Virus record (IMG/VR): IMGVR_UViG_3300028897_000551
Location: 1 to 28,102 of that record
Source: a virus
Reading direction: 5' to 3' (one strand)
Length of the DNA stretch: 28,102 nucleotides
The position numbers and the translations under genes are program-made. The notes beneath the pieces were generated by a model. It saw only the letters and a list, made by a program, of their open reading frames with translations, searched no databases and was not told the origin of the DNA. Below are positions 8,627-26,970 of the stretch, one piece after another. Each line of letters starts with the position of its first letter. Position 1 is the stretch's first letter.

Positions 8627-9379
8627 ATGTTGAAATGGCTTTTTTTATTATTTCTTGTTGCATGTGTCACTAAAGAAATAGAAACACAGCAACCACATGA
8701 ATATGCCGAGGCACCTGATCCTGAAATTTTTCAAAATGGGGAAGCCATAGGTTTAAGATGGAAAAAGCCCAAAGGAACAGATATTGCAGGATATTATATT
8801 TATGCATGGAAATATCTTAAACAAGAAAAGGGCTATTATTTCAAAAAAGAGAAGATATATGATGTTGGTCATAGGCTTCAGTATTATATTTATTATGAAA
8901 GTCCATATATTTATAAGATCTTTTTAAGATCGTATGACACAAGAGGCAACAAATCGTTTGCCAGCAAAGTTAAATTTTATCCCAGAAAACCAGATGATTG
9001 GGACGGCGGCATTATTATGATGAATCTTGATTTAATGGATCCGTGGACAGGAAGTCTTTACAAAACAGGAGAGGACATAACAATCGCATGGGATGGAAGT
9101 GCTGAATCAACCAAATATGAAGTAAAGATGCATTTCATTAATGATGATGCGCATATATCAACAACCAATTATGGTGAAACAGCAGAATGTACAATGACGA
9201 TGGAGCGTCCACATGGGATCGTAGGACTGTGCGAGTTTTTTGTAAGAGCTTATGCTAATGGCGAATGGAGTGAATGGGTATCTTCAGATAGTGAAATGGG
9301 CCAAGTAACAATTGACGGAGAACAACAATCTGGGAACTGGATTGTATATTGGATGCTTCCAGCACCAGTTTGGGAATGA
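8627..9379 (+). CDS. Secreted lipoprotein with two fibronectin type III-like domains
   Basis: The N-terminus MLKWLFLLFLVAC is a lipoprotein signal peptide with lipobox LVAC, so Cys13 would be lipid-modified. Residues about 28-125 (IGLRWKKPKGTDIAGYYIYA, then FLRSYDTRGNKSF) are an FN3-like sandwich, and a second one spans about 135-235 (ITIAWDGSAESTKYEVKM, FFVRAYANGEWSEW). I chose ATG 8627 because AAGGGGGG precedes it and the signal peptide starts there. A phage gene for a host-surface lipoprotein suggests superinfection exclusion, lysogenic conversion or an outer-membrane lysis role; none is proven. Confidence 0.75.
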   Translation: MLKWLFLLFLVACVTKEIETQQPHEYAEAPDPEIFQNGEAIGLRWKKPKGTDIAGYYIYAWKYLKQEKGYYFKKEKIYDVGHRLQYYIYYESPYIYKIFLRSYDTRGNKSFASKVKFYPRKPDDWDGGIIMMNLDLMDPWTGSLYKTGEDITIAWDGSAESTKYEVKMHFINDDAHISTTNYGETAECTMTMERPHGIVGLCEFFVRAYANGEWSEWVSSDSEMGQVTIDGEQQSGNWIVYWMLPAPVWE

Positions 9380-9392
9380 AAAGGAGGATTAA

Positions 9393-9746
9393 ATGAAGTT
9401 TTTGATTTTATTGATGTTTATTTGTAATTTATTGTTTGCCGAATACATTCAACCTAAAAAATTAACATGGGTGAATTCTACTTCAACAGACGTTGTAAAG
9501 CACAGATTATATCTTGTGCCAGAAGCTCAGGCAATTGATTATTTCAGCTCTCCACATGTGGATCTTGATGTCCCGATCAATGAATACACATTGCCGGGTG
9601 TTTTTACAATTGGAGAAGGTAATTATCGCGCTGGTATAGCTTCAATGGATGCCGCTGGAAACATATCTAACATAACGGAGAAAGTGTTCCCTTTGGATCA
9701 GACCCCACCGAACCCACCGACGAATCTTCAATTAGTCGATGGCTGA
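9393..9746 (+). CDS. Secreted FN3-like protein (117 aa), possible -1 frameshift donor
   Basis: MKFLILLMFICNLLFA is a Sec signal peptide. The rest is one FN3-like domain (LTWVNSTSTDVVKHRLYLVP, then YRAGIASMDAAGNISN) ending PPNPPTNLQLVDG, which looks like the first strand of a second domain cut short. A -1 reading frame from 9671 encodes a membrane anchor, and a CCCTTTG heptamer in phase at 9689-9695 could join the two. A strong AAAAGGAGG site precedes the ATG. It forms a pair with the lipoprotein upstream. Confidence 0.75.
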   Translation: MKFLILLMFICNLLFAEYIQPKKLTWVNSTSTDVVKHRLYLVPEAQAIDYFSSPHVDLDVPINEYTLPGVFTIGEGNYRAGIASMDAAGNISNITEKVFPLDQTPPNPPTNLQLVDG

Positions 9747-9826
9747 GAAAATATGTTAAATGGATTTTCGGTGGGCTTGCTGCTATAATATCAATATTGA
9801 TAGTCTTTTTTAGAAAGAAAAAATAA
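9671..9826 (+). other. Open -1 frame encoding a C-terminal membrane anchor (no start codon)
   Basis: This frame has no usable ATG but reads SDPTEPTDESSISRWLRKY, then a hydrophobic stretch (IFGGLAAIISILIVFF) and RKKK. That is a classic stop-transfer anchor. It is entered from the FN3 gene if ribosomes slip -1 at C-CCT-TTG (9689-9695); a GGAG lies eight bases upstream of the heptamer. The joined product would be 144 residues. Its TAA overlaps the next ATG (TAATG), which supports real translation. Confidence 0.5.
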
Positions 9827-9915
9827 TGGAGTGTCCATATTGCGGATCACATGCTGTTTTTCTTGACGACGAGAAAGAAGCCTTTTACTGCATGTATTGT
9901 TATAGTTGGTTTTAA
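9826..9915 (+). CDS. 29-residue zinc-ribbon peptide
   Basis: The ORF reads MECPYCGSHAVFLDD and ends FYCMYCYSWF, a full CxxC-x16-CxxC zinc ribbon in 29 residues. The ATG overlaps the stop of the membrane-anchor frame (TAATG). The complete four-Cys pattern makes chance unlikely. Function unknown. Confidence 0.65.
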   Translation: MECPYCGSHAVFLDDEKEAFYCMYCYSWF

Positions 9916-9917
9916 GC

Positions 9918-10121
9918 ATGAAAGATAAAAAACTGAAATTTGAATCAGTTTTATACAAAGGCGTTTTTTATAAAAACGAGAATAAATGGGAGGCTGGAAT
10001 AGGATATAATAGAAAATATATTATGTTAGGGCATTATAAAACAGAAATTGATGCAGCAAAGGCTTATGATAAAGCTGCTAGGAAAGAATATGGAGAGTTT
10101 GCTTACTTAAACTTTCCATAG
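9918..10121 (+). CDS. Stand-alone AP2 domain protein (67 aa)
   Basis: After a short lead (MKDKKLKFESVLYKGV), residues about 17-67 (NKWEAGIGYNRKYIMLGHY, then EIDAAKAYDKAARKEYGEFA, ending YLNFP) match the AP2 DNA-binding domain. In phages AP2 usually forms the DNA-recognition end of HNH homing endonucleases. No nuclease part is present, so this is either a remnant of such a gene or a free DNA-binding protein. Its end overlaps the minus-strand gene at 10078-10254 by 44 bp. Confidence 0.78.
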   Translation: MKDKKLKFESVLYKGVFYKNENKWEAGIGYNRKYIMLGHYKTEIDAAKAYDKAARKEYGEFAYLNFP

Positions 10122-14603: not shown

Positions 14604-15101
14604 TTGGCTGACAAAATAACGTGGAAGCTTAAATTAAAAAGCATAATGGGCACATCAAGGGCTACAAAAGAAAAAAAAGACATGATTAAAGAGGAAGTCG
14701 GTGAATATATTATTGACAAGATTCTTGAGGATGTGTCGAAATTAAAAAGCCCAGTGGATATGCGTAATAAACGCGTTAACAGAAAGTTTGATAAACTTAA
14801 AAAAAAATATGCAAGATTTAAGAAAGAAAGTGGATTGAATGATGTGCCAAATCTTGAATTTTCAGGGCTGATGCTAGACTCGATAGAGGCGCGTCCATAC
14901 AGGGATGGGGTAGAGATTGGGATATTTGAGGGAGATGCGGTCCCAAGAGCAGACAATCACAATAAATTCTCGGCAAAATCAAAGAAGACAGCTGTTCCAA
15001 AAAGACAATTCATTCCAAAGGCCAGGGAAAAATTCAGGCCATCAATAATGAAAGGAATAAAAAGAATAGCAAAGGAAATTTTAAGGGAAAAGCATGGCTA
15101 A
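14604..15101 (+). CDS. Head-completion / virion-morphogenesis-like protein
   Basis: I read a TTG start giving MADKITWKLKLKSIMG; the next ATG is 14 codons later. The sequence has LEFSGLMLDSIEARPYRDGV (about 91-110), then EIGIFEGDA and PKRQFIPKAREKF (about 133-145). The order of 'L..SG.MLDSI', 'VEIG' and 'PKRQF' is that of phage virion-morphogenesis proteins of the Mu gpG type, which act in tail or head-tail completion. It overlaps the following similar gene by 8 bp. Confidence 0.65.
   Translation: MADKITWKLKLKSIMGTSRATKEKKDMIKEEVGEYIIDKILEDVSKLKSPVDMRNKRVNRKFDKLKKKYARFKKESGLNDVPNLEFSGLMLDSIEARPYRDGVEIGIFEGDAVPRADNHNKFSAKSKKTAVPKRQFIPKAREKFRPSIMKGIKRIAKEILREKHG
14762..14779. repeat. 18-bp exact repeat, copy 2 (copy 1 at 6227-6244)
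   Basis: GCGTAATAAACGCGTTAA, coding RNKRV as in the initiator gene. Here the left flank is ATGCGT rather than ACGCGT, so only one full palindromic hexamer remains. Confidence 0.8.
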
Positions 15102-15660
15102 GATATTTGGATTAAAGATCAACACTGACAAAGTTGACAAACTTTTTGGGGAAATAAAAAAAATTGGGTGGAACGATGTCCGAAGAATCGGAGCCGACAA
15201 AGCAAAAGAGCAGCTCAAAGAAGACATTGTTAATACAATAAAAAGAGGGAACTCCCCTGTAAAGGGGGAAAGGCGTTTTGTGGATTACTCAGATTCCTAC
15301 AAGGCTGCTATCAGGGGTGAGGTTAGATTTTTTACTGATAAACAGGGAAAGGTAAGACCGATTTTGGGTGGAGCTGTAGGGCTAGGGTACGGTAAAAAGC
15401 TGCGCCCGATTAATCTCACACTTTCAGGAAAAATGTTAAATAGTGTTAAGGGAAGAGTAACTGACAGGGGGATAAGTCTGTGGTTTACAAGTCCAATTGC
15501 AAAATATCATAATATTGAGGGAGCCGGAAAGTCGAAAACTATTCGACGTATGCTTCCAAAGTCAAATGAGGATTTGAAGGAATCTGTCAAGGAGAGGGCT
15601 GCGAGAACAATAGGCAATGCATATGAGAAGGTTTTGAATTCAAAGAAAAGGAGTGTGTAA
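15094..15660 (+). CDS. HK97 gp10-like head-tail completion protein
   Basis: The protein has 188 residues. The features LKEDIVNTIKRGNSPVKGER, then DYSDSYKAAI and KKLRPINLTLSGKMLNSVKG (about 106-126) and ISLWFTSPIAKYHN recall the 'I..G.SP..G', 'Y...Y' and 'LSG.ML.S' layout of gp10-type and related head-tail joining proteins. It is adjacent to a distant relative at 14604. The precise place in the particle is uncertain. Confidence 0.65.
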   Translation: MAKIFGLKINTDKVDKLFGEIKKIGWNDVRRIGADKAKEQLKEDIVNTIKRGNSPVKGERRFVDYSDSYKAAIRGEVRFFTDKQGKVRPILGGAVGLGYGKKLRPINLTLSGKMLNSVKGRVTDRGISLWFTSPIAKYHNIEGAGKSKTIRRMLPKSNEDLKESVKERAARTIGNAYEKVLNSKKRSV

Positions 15661-24048: not shown

Positions 24049-24360
24049 ATGCGGGTTTATGACTATAAACCTAAAGGATTCAAAGGCTCTGTTAAGATTC
24101 AGATACCGAACTATAAACAGAGATTAAATTATGTAAAAGAGTCGGGTTTTGAGATTGGTGAAACTGTCTCTTTAAAAAACAACATTGATGCTCTGCTTGT
24201 GCTTATTGATGTCGCAGAAAAGCACATTAAGGAGATCAATCTTGAAAAAGGGAGGGAATCAATAAAATCATGGGAGGAACTTCTGGATTCTGACCATAAC
24301 GATATTATCCAGCAGATAGCTCTCATGATGGTCCTTGGAGGGGGCCTGGGGGAAGCCTAA
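24049..24360 (+). CDS. Tail assembly chaperone, short form (gpG-like)
   Basis: The 103-residue protein (MRVYDYKPKGFKGSVKIQIP, FEIGETVSLKNNIDALLVLI, then DHNDIIQQIALMMVLGGGLG) lies between tube and tape measure, as gpG does in lambda. These chaperones coat the tape measure protein before tube assembly. It ends in LGGGLGEA, coded by two runs of five G, where a -1 shift would give the long form. AAGGAGG precedes the ATG. Confidence 0.8.
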   Translation: MRVYDYKPKGFKGSVKIQIPNYKQRLNYVKESGFEIGETVSLKNNIDALLVLIDVAEKHIKEINLEKGRESIKSWEELLDSDHNDIIQQIALMMVLGGGLGEA

Positions 24361-24587
24361 AGGGAAAGCTTAGGTTACAGATTAATGCATTATGGAATAA
24401 AACAAATTACACGAATGAGACAGCAGCGATTTTAAACTCCTATCTTTCCCACAAGGCTTTGAGTGAAATAGGTTATATTTTTGATTTAAATGATTTAGAG
24501 TGGTGGGAGGCTGAAGCATATTGTTTTATATCATCAGAACTGACAAGATTGCAAGAAATGGAGATGAAGCGTGGCCGTAAAGGTTGA
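24049..24587 (+). CDS. Tail assembly chaperone, long -1 frameshift form (gpGT-like, 179 aa)
   Basis: The -1 frame beyond the first stop is open to a TGA at 24585-24587 and has no proper start codon. It reads GKLRLQINALWNKTNYTNET, then DLNDLEWWEAEAYCFISSEL and TRLQEMEMKRGRKG, a normal helical T-domain. The layout equals the G/GT frameshift of lambda-type phages. The slip point must lie in the G runs 24340-24344 or 24348-24352; neither offers an ideal XXXYYYZ. The T end overlaps the tape-measure start by 17 bp. Confidence 0.72.
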
Positions 24588-26970
24588 AGTTACATTTGAA
24601 ATGATTGACAAGCTCTCAAAAGAGCTTGAAAAAATGAGATCGAAAATAGACGGTGCAAACCAAAATTTTAAAAAATTGAATACAACCATAGAGTCACAAG
24701 GGCATGTTATGAGCTTTCTTAAGACAAAAATATTGCCACTTGTGACAGCATATGCAGGCTTCAATATTGTAAGAAATATAGTATCTTCTTTCGTTGACTT
24801 TAATGAGGCAATAATTGAAATAACCACAATAATGCCTGACGCTACTAAGGTAAACAATGCGTTCAGAAAAACACTAATAGACATATCCGCACAATTTGGC
24901 ACAACAAGCGCGGCACAAGCGAAGGCCTATTATCAGATTATATCAGCGGGAGTGACTGACGCTGCTAAGGCCCAAGAGCTTTTGATAGCAGCAAATAAGC
25001 TGGCTGTTGGAGGGTTGGCCGACATTCAGGGGACAATAAACATATTGACTGACGCACTCAATGTCTATGGACAACAAAATCTATCCGCTGCTGATGCTGC
25101 AGACTCACTTTTCACTGCGGTCCGGCTTGGGAAAACAAGGATCGAGGAGCTTGCTGGATCTTTTGGCAGACTCCTCCCAACAGCAAAACAGCTCGGGATA
25201 TCATTTGCAGAGGTAGCTGCTACTGTTGCAACACTAACCACAAGGGGACTAACCACAGCAGAAAGAGTCACGCAGCTTGACGCGGTATTCACAGCCCTCT
25301 TAAAAAAGCAAGGCGAGGCTGCAAGGATTGGTGGTAGAGTCGCCGAGGCGTTCACATTGCAGGCACTTAGGACTAAGGGCCTTGTCAAATTTTTAAAAGA
25401 TCTTTTTGATGCAACTGGCAGATCTGAAGAGGTTCTTACAAAGCTTCTTGGAAGGGTGGAGGGATCAAAGGCGATACTCACACTTGCAAGCGACAATTTC
25501 CAAAAGCTTGGCGACAATCTGAATCAATTCAAAGACAGAGCTGGTGCGGCTGACGAGGCTTTTAAGAAGGCTTCAAAGTCAATAAGAAAACAGCTTGAAA
25601 TTCTAGGGAGCAAGATAGTAGCTTTCTTTGAAAAACAACTTATAAAAATCGAGGGGCCTCTCAGCCAAATCATAGGTTTATTGAATGACGGATTTGATCC
25701 GGCCCTTGAGGAATCAAGCGAAGAAGTCAGGAAACTCAAGGAGGAGATAGACAAACTTGAGGATATCAGGGCTGTAGAAGAGTTTCTTGAAAAAATGTCT
25801 TTTGGCCTTGCTGTTACAGACATTGACAAAACTACAGAAAAGTTAGAAGATCTTAGAAAAAAATTAAAGGAAATACAGGCACTCGGTCCAGTTAAGCCAA
25901 TAACTCCTCCAAAAGAGGAAGCACCTCCTGAAGCAGTCCCGACAATAACTCCAGAAGAACTTAAAAAAGTTCAAGGAAAAATACAGCTGGCCGTAGGGAT
26001 CATAATATCTGGAGATGCCGCGAAAGGCATGATTGCACTTTTTAATAAGTCTGGCAACATATGGCTACAGGCGGTTGCTGGGGCTGTCCAAATACTTGGG
26101 CAAGAAGAAGACAAATTCAGAAAAATGATAGAATCAATATTCAAGACCGGAAGGGAACTTCCCAAAATAATGGCAAGGAATATTGGTGTGTTAATTGAAG
26201 AGGCATTTAGGAGCATCCCAGAATCTCTGATTGATGCACGCAATATGATTCCAAATATTATAAAAGGATTTATTGATGGGTTAAGAACCGCATTTACAGA
26301 TAAAACACTTATAAATGACATTATGCAAGCAATGGCAGATATATTGGTTGGACTTGAAACAAATCCAGAATTCATATCGGCTATGACAGAAGCTGGTGTT
26401 CAAATAGCAAATGGTCTTGCAGAAGCTTTAACGGCGCATTTCCTGGATCCAGAATTTGTAAATAATTTGGCTAAGGGACAGATAAATGCTTTTAAACATG
26501 CAATTACAGATTTTATAAAAAATGGGGCGCCAAGGATTGCAGACAGCATTGTTGACAGCATAAGAAAACAGTCTGTTGGCCTTTTTGATAAATATGTTAG
26601 TATAGTAAATGAGTTTGGCTCAGCAGTTGGATTTTTTTCTGACATTATAGGTGAACTAAAGAAATTTCTTAGCTCAATCGGCGGAGGCGTCAGCAAGGCA
26701 GGTGGTGGAATCGTTGATTTTATCAAAAGCATATCACCATTTCAAGAAGGTGGAGATATTCCGAGAAATATGCTGGCCTTCGTTCATAAAAACGAAAATG
26801 TAATTGATAAAACAACAAACACCAGGCTTGGAAATATGCTTGACGCGTTCGAGCGAGGGGATCTTGCTGGGCCACAAACGATAATAGTAAAATCGGTTAT
26901 AGGGGAGAGTGAATTCGCTGAGGCGATACATTCATTAAGCAGAAGGGGTTTTAGGTTAAATGCAGCATAG
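24571..26970 (+). CDS. Tape measure protein (TP901 family)
   Basis: The 799-residue protein sets tail length and guides DNA exit. Residues about 70-235 follow the TP901 tail-tape core (FNEAIIEITTIMPDATKVNN, YYQIISAGVTDAAKAQELLI, AADSLFTAVRLGKTRIEELA, FGRLLPTAKQLGISFAEVAA). The middle and end hold coiled coils (EVRKLKEEIDKLEDIRAVEE) and hydrophobic helices, and a Pro/Glu linker at about 440-460. At about 0.15 nm per residue the tail would be near 120 nm, by the usual rule. It starts at GTG 24571, with GGAGATG upstream. Confidence 0.92.
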   Translation: MAVKVEVTFEMIDKLSKELEKMRSKIDGANQNFKKLNTTIESQGHVMSFLKTKILPLVTAYAGFNIVRNIVSSFVDFNEAIIEITTIMPDATKVNNAFRKTLIDISAQFGTTSAAQAKAYYQIISAGVTDAAKAQELLIAANKLAVGGLADIQGTINILTDALNVYGQQNLSAADAADSLFTAVRLGKTRIEELAGSFGRLLPTAKQLGISFAEVAATVATLTTRGLTTAERVTQLDAVFTALLKKQGEAARIGGRVAEAFTLQALRTKGLVKFLKDLFDATGRSEEVLTKLLGRVEGSKAILTLASDNFQKLGDNLNQFKDRAGAADEAFKKASKSIRKQLEILGSKIVAFFEKQLIKIEGPLSQIIGLLNDGFDPALEESSEEVRKLKEEIDKLEDIRAVEEFLEKMSFGLAVTDIDKTTEKLEDLRKKLKEIQALGPVKPITPPKEEAPPEAVPTITPEELKKVQGKIQLAVGIIISGDAAKGMIALFNKSGNIWLQAVAGAVQILGQEEDKFRKMIESIFKTGRELPKIMARNIGVLIEEAFRSIPESLIDARNMIPNIIKGFIDGLRTAFTDKTLINDIMQAMADILVGLETNPEFISAMTEAGVQIANGLAEALTAHFLDPEFVNNLAKGQINAFKHAITDFIKNGAPRIADSIVDSIRKQSVGLFDKYVSIVNEFGSAVGFFSDIIGELKKFLSSIGGGVSKAGGGIVDFIKSISPFQEGGDIPRNMLAFVHKNENVIDKTTNTRLGNMLDAFERGDLAGPQTIIVKSVIGESEFAEAIHSLSRRGFRLNAA

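Follow-up and report, generated by a model that had tools for sequence, protein, structure and literature searches.

The window analysed here is a single IMG/VR virus record of 28,102 bases, in which terminase genes are present and more structural-looking ORFs lie 3' of them. On the 5' side of the terminase genes, a lipoprotein-like ORF, a gene for a 117-residue protein, an open -1 frame, a zinc ribbon and an AP2 domain follow one another in this order; the first four, and all the signals described below, are on the plus strand. The lipoprotein-like protein (8627-9379), with an LVAC lipobox read by eye, showed weak similarity to FN3 domains (Pfam fn3, E 0.008, below the cut-off), and a homologue with 40% identity was found at locus L085. 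The zinc ribbon (9826-9912), 29 residues long, matched Pfam Zn_Ribbon_TF with 1.2e-4, below the family cut-off. The AP2 domain (9918-10121; Pfam 3.3e-8) is free-standing, with no HNH domain listed, and resembles parts of phage HNH endonucleases (phrog_99, 2.5e-14). ORFs with long Gly-Asn/Asp-Gly-Tyr repeats occur at 511-996 of the window and at 7053-8020 of L085, i.e., in both phages with the Ig-like protein, and the repeat ORF of the window opens with a DUF7666 domain (E 4.6e-27). In a nearly identical contig (L314), the ORF at 15094-15660 is missing 64 bases (15360-15423), a length that is not a multiple of three.

The 117-residue protein (9393-9746), the product of frame 0, was delimited by its ORF and by a co-terminal homologue, and it has a signal-peptide-like N-terminus. 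A previous sequence-only reading of this DNA had called it an FN3 protein. Although Ig-like/FN3 similarity was indeed seen, it is weak for the 117-residue protein alone, which matched Pfam PF12245 (Ig-like) with an E value of 0.089, below the cut-off; the matches of the homologue to PKD (0.0036) and Big_3_2 (0.012) were all below the cut-offs as well. A profile search of the PDB gave 2yn3 (3.7e-4) as the best match, and profile A2, consisting of two sequences, matched parts of larger ORFs in five of the 50 phage records searched, besides the record of the homologue (best 3.2e-5). A single-sequence structure model of the protein (pLDDT 57.7, four strands) was too poor for a fold search, and a PHROG search returned no family for either the 117-residue protein or the anchor frame. 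We rejected its identity as a phage tail assembly chaperone of the G/GT type, because no chaperone family was matched and the gene is located upstream of the terminase, while the tape-measure-like ORF is found at 24571-26970. The position of the gene, beside a lipoprotein with FN3 similarity, allows at best a guess at a role at the host envelope, e.g., in altering attachment or entry.

The -1 frame extends from 9671, after a TAA at 9668-9670, to the TAA at 9824-9826 and thus opens just before the slippery heptamer, as had been claimed. With regard to the further claim that it has no start codon, ATG, GTG and TTG are absent before the predicted membrane span, but the frame contains one of them, TTG 9797, inside the span, and the near-cognate codons ATT 9731 and CTG 9743 are located further up. 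The predicted span, VKWIFGGLAAIISILIVFF (9755-9811), has a mean hydropathy of 2.32 and is followed by RKKK at the end of the frame, which closes in TAATG at the start of the zinc-ribbon ORF; these features were read directly in the sequence and agree with the earlier description. Because positive charges are present on both sides of the span, its topology is not clear. The zinc ribbon has no clear Shine-Dalgarno (SD) sequence of its own and starts on the stop codon of the -1 frame, an arrangement that fits translational coupling. Past the frame 0 stop, the codon score of the -1 frame was 0.160 per codon, compared with 0.280 (sd 0.196) for true frames and -0.283 (sd 0.204) for wrong frames in reference stretches of 26 codons, and its synonymous-codon score was +0.326 against 0.005 expected from the base composition. 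Between the heptamer and the frame 0 stop, the codon score was -0.032, which is not clearly coding. Among 100,000 Markov sequences generated with a matching make-up, 2.6% were open for 51 codons; three of the 100,000 were open and also carried an equally hydrophobic span within their last 25 residues, and none of them had, in addition, three Lys/Arg among the last five residues. We conclude that the anchor frame is very probably a coding sequence.

The candidate slippery heptamer C_CCT_TTG is located at 9689-9695, and the codons TTC CCT TTG confirmed that it is exactly in phase, as had been noticed before. It is on the list of shift-prone motifs of PMC4066793; in the part of that paper accessible to us, C_CC.U_UU.G and U_UU.U_UU.C are both among the 18 motifs that shift at more than 0.10% without stimulators, the pairing of C with U is favourable, UUG is one of the weaker UUN codons, and the most efficient class includes U_UU.U_UU.C and excludes C_CC.U_UU.G. 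In the window, in-phase X_XXY_YYZ motifs were found at 61 of 6270 codon pairs, in 21 of the 25 genes, and at 28 of 6245 positions, in 17 of the 25 genes, when only the 21 motifs selected in PMC4066793 were counted. The chance expectation of such a heptamer within the 25-codon overlap is about 0.24, and the heptamer by itself is hardly meaningful. Among the 61 heptamers, however, only C_CCT_TTG at 9689-9695 has a -1 frame running far (80 nt) past the gene end, whereas three others run 23 nt past it. Transcriptional slippage at the site was set aside because the sequence contains no long A or T run.

Upstream of the heptamer, the SD-like sequence GGAG (9677-9680), read in the sequence, lies at a gap of 8-9 bases, in agreement with the eight bases given earlier and within the rule of PMC4066793. 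Downstream, a hairpin is predicted at 9704-9775, with a perfect 9-bp outer stem formed by 9704-9712 and 9767-9775; it begins nine bases past the heptamer (an 8-base spacer) and encloses the frame 0 stop. The region 9696-9790 folded with -25.8 kcal/mol (z -2.74; 2 of 200 shuffled sequences were as stable) and the hairpin region ranked 21st among 1110 windows of 80 nt, while a shorter fold window (9696-9766), which cuts off the 3' arm, gave a z value of +0.26. With -23.5 kcal/mol, the hairpin passes the rule which the accessible part of PMC4066793 gives for this optional stimulator (17-140 nt in length, starting 4-10 nt past the motif, a G-C first pair and at least 7.6 kcal/mol). The published rule is permissive: under the 140-nt limit, a qualifying hairpin followed 674 of 1500 random in-phase positions, and one at least as stable as that at 9704-9775 was present at 236 of the 1500 positions and at 14 of the 61 heptamers, including C_CCT_TTG at 9689-9695. 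Under an 80-nt limit, which was chosen afterwards, its stability was matched at 31 of 6245 positions, and C_CCT_TTG at 9689-9695 was the only one of the 61 heptamers to join that stability with a stem of at least 9 bp. Thus, the heptamer, the SD-like site and the predicted hairpin (9677-9775) all satisfy the published E. coli rules (PMC4066793), and the dnaX-like order of stimulators, for which only the upstream SD-like site had been pointed out, is extended by a previously unnoticed stable hairpin at the right spacing.

The frequency of comparable signals was estimated in a joint screen of 307 loci including the window, a non-random sample with many near-identical loci, which contained 4114 mechanically called ORFs of at least 100 residues. 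Listed heptamers in the last 30 codons with a -1 frame closing inside the locus numbered 263, and a -1 extension of at least 15 codons with no ATG, GTG or TTG up to 15 bases past the gene stop was found in 20 cases. An SD-like site accompanied five of these 20, a qualifying hairpin ten and both four, and a membrane span was present in one, that of the window. All signals, combined with a -1 extension that has no usual start, were therefore found in four of the 4114 ORFs, and the membrane span in the window's alone. One of the four, at L180, pairs a tail assembly chaperone (phrog_344, 1e-7) with its tail-protein extension (phrog_337, 1.1e-5). This is the classic phage -1 frameshift, and the filter thus recovers at least one genuine kind; of the other two, that at L022 matched no PHROG family and that at L216 matched a PHROG of unknown function. 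Elsewhere in the window, a 103-residue ORF before the tape-measure-like gene is followed by an open -1 extension (24300-24587), as in the G/GT tail chaperones. This pair (24049-24587) gave no chaperone PHROG match, and its overlap contains a G-rich stretch, GGAGGGGGC, but no in-phase X_XXY_YYZ or listed heptamer, which suggests that real shifts in the same phage need not use one.

Only one full-length homologue of the 117-residue protein was found (in 1 of 12 records). It is encoded at 868-1176 of L312 (record IMGVR_UViG_3300005613_000095) and is 52% identical over residues 18-116 (E 5.8e-27); the same record holds the sole relative that a scan returned for the lipoprotein. In the homologue, the domain begins at once, with no signal peptide before it, which suggests that one branch of the family works within the cell or on the virion. 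In frame 0 the two proteins are co-terminal, and they share V and D immediately ahead of the stop. The predicted anchor is not conserved in the homologue, whose -1 frame has a hydropathy of 0.44 as opposed to 2.32 in the window; this frame contains an ATG at 1158, crosses the apparent SD of the next gene and ends just past the ATG of that gene. Its codon score past the stop, -0.061, was ambiguous, falling between those of true frames (0.223, sd 0.159) and of wrong frames (-0.218, sd 0.163). At the same codon pair as in the window (P-L in the window, F-F in the homologue), the homologue has its single in-phase heptamer, U_UUU_UUC, which is also a listed motif. In sampled genes of its record, such heptamers were found at 15 of 1536 codon pairs (about 1%) and listed motifs at 8 of 1523. 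An SD-like site, GGTGG, is in range of U_UUU_UUC, and a hairpin of -13.2 kcal/mol is within the formal limit, although the region folds no better than shuffled sequences (z -0.14). The SD-like site and the formally acceptable hairpin help the frameshift reading a little, and the -1 tail, which is not clearly coding, hurts it a little; the slippery codon pair shared by the two sequences is suggestive at most. With respect to the conservation of heptamer and frame, which had been proposed as a check, the homologue shows a different listed heptamer, accompanied by an SD-like site, at this codon pair, and a -1 tail that is not a membrane span and has an ambiguous codon score. The sequence-only reading had counted two findings in homologues against frameshifting, the lack of the anchor and its in-frame fusion as a sign of a local indel. 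The sole full-length homologue does lack the anchor, whereas its end at the same point in frame 0 argues against an indel.

Further relatives were sought by several approaches. A profile search detected the family of the 117-residue protein in none of 50 records, 48 of them terminase relatives, and in six of another 50, namely the record of the homologue and five with partial matches inside larger ORFs. Of the terminase-based relatives, 80 of 356 confirmed loci were kept; no such gene was found by a pattern search of 81 loci (besides L001-L004) or among selected ORFs upstream of the terminase in ten terminase-related loci. Pattern scans for the protein gave three matches of 21-23 residues that were judged spurious (in L002 and L003, out of frame in a longer ORF), and a second pattern-based scan found nothing. 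Because these scans require exact short peptides and missed the true homologue, their silence says little. Two matches in cellular genomes were discarded, as they share only a short Ig-like stretch (L188, best segment of 44 residues; L189, within a 937-residue ORF), and tblastn searches of phages and plasmids gave weak matches only, with no clear relative. Neither the linker pattern D.TPP..PTNL (100 stretches) nor a zinc ribbon starting in TAATG (at least 120 matches listed) led to a similar cassette among these matches. At 3451-3720 of L124, a protein ends in an FN3-type linker (DTTPPSIPTNLTATNVS, directly before the stop), and an ORF in the +1 frame, hydrophobic at its start, continues into FN3-like sequence.

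The local signals are unusually complete, but the anchor is absent from the only full-length homologue found. Frameshifting leads among the readings, as a candidate represented by one case (n = 1). Most ribosomes would read 9393-9746 and yield an exported 117-residue Ig/FN3-like protein. A minority, slowed by GGAG behind and the hairpin ahead, would slip back by one base at C_CCT_TTG and read to 9826, by which the last 16 residues would be replaced with a 43-residue stretch of linker, membrane span and RKKK tail. The arithmetic of the product sizes given earlier, 117 and 144 residues, is right (101 + 43 = 144). Since the shift point is just after the domain, both forms would keep it, one free in the periplasm and the other tethered to the inner membrane, and the shifted ribosomes, stopping at TAATG, could start the zinc ribbon. 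We give this lineage-specific programmed -1 frameshift, with free and anchored forms, about an even chance of being correct. If it is, the shift would determine which copies of an exported Ig-like protein stay free and which become tethered. More tentatively, and with doubts that outweigh our confidence, we propose that -1 frameshifting serves as a localisation switch, keeping the free periplasmic and the inner-membrane-tethered Ig-like protein at a fixed ratio, and that ribosomes shift at an ancient slippery codon pair. This pair, which has kept its slipperiness in the distant homologue (U_UUU_UUC, with an SD-like site), would allow different C-terminal modules to be attached while the domain stays undisturbed. 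If the frameshift is real, the locus would offer a compact example from nature of how C-terminal modules are exchanged at slippery sequences.

The same evidence can be read in other ways. The anchor may be the product of a small gene of its own, for a membrane protein. Such a gene would start at or close to the end of the Ig-like gene, from a non-standard codon (CTG 9743, overlapping the TGA as CTGA, or ATT 9731), by translational coupling, or from a usual start since lost by a base change. The co-terminal homologue, in which the Ig-like protein is complete without an anchor, favours a separate gene, as does codon evidence that is good past the stop and poor between the heptamer and the stop. 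However, such a gene would have no ATG, GTG or TTG, no SD precedes CTG 9743 or ATT 9731, CTG 9743 is paired inside the predicted hairpin, and CTGA is not evidence because any TGA gives an NTG codon in the -1 frame. We consider a separate gene unlikely, if a serious contender.

A one-base loss, natural or introduced in assembly, that broke an in-frame anchor gene or the start of a separate one is rather improbable. In its favour, the site is covered by only one record, and frame transitions found as singletons are, according to the accessible part of PMC3711429, more likely to be indels or errors. Against such a loss stand the homologue, which ends in frame 0 at the same point and retains V and D before the stop, and the three signal elements, which chance damage would leave unexplained. 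A near-identical second assembly also differed by 24 substitutions and a single gap of 64 bases in 16,152 aligned bases and by no one-base indel, within an alignment that starts inside the terminase and does not reach the site. Lastly, the -1 frame could be an untranslated relic or a chance open frame, and the hairpin could have another role or none. This would agree with the frequency of hairpins within the published limits (674 of 1500) and with the outcome of a scan for relatives of the anchor, in which none of 54 pattern matches was confirmed, exact 8-residue matches being required. An intact hydrophobic span with coding-like codon usage, and a zinc ribbon that begins on the stop of the -1 frame without a clear SD, make a relic the least probable of these explanations.

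The candidate frameshift resembles that of E. coli dnaX in that an SD-like site, a slippery heptamer and a downstream stem-loop come in the same order. According to the accessible parts of the reports, dnaX uses A_AAA_AAG, one of the most efficient motifs, and its shift makes the shorter product (PMC5009743), in both of which it is unlike the case described here; SD-like and hairpin stimulators are described for A_AAA_AAG (PMC3711429). As in the tail assembly chaperones G/GT, the -1 shift would occur close to the 3' end of a small phage gene and lead into an overlapping frame that has no start of its own, and the UUUUUUC predicted for a -1 shift in SPP1 17.5 (PMC6316719) is the heptamer of our homologue; the gene family and position are different, and the extension at L180 has no membrane span (hydropathy 0.56). 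In phages T3 and A2 and in SPP1 gp17.1/gp17.1*, Ig-like or FN3 extensions of virion proteins are made by programmed frameshift (PMC5009743, PMC6316719), and the window has in common with them that one phage gene involving an Ig-like/FN3 module would give rise to two proteins sharing their N-terminus. In those phages, however, frameshifting adds the Ig-like domain to a virion protein, whereas here the Ig-like protein is the base product to which an anchor would be added; moreover, the FN3 extension of SPP1 gp17.1* arises by a +1 shift (PMC6316719), unlike the candidate -1 shift. For out-of-frame C-terminal Ig-like modules, non-homologous recombination with later expression by frameshifting was suggested (PMC5009743), and a lineage-specific frameshift fits this view. 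We recognised no phage or bacterial example of such a localisation switch in the partially accessible literature on it and on frameshifts with Ig-like domains. As far as these sources describe them, phage Ig-like frameshifts add the domain to a virion protein.
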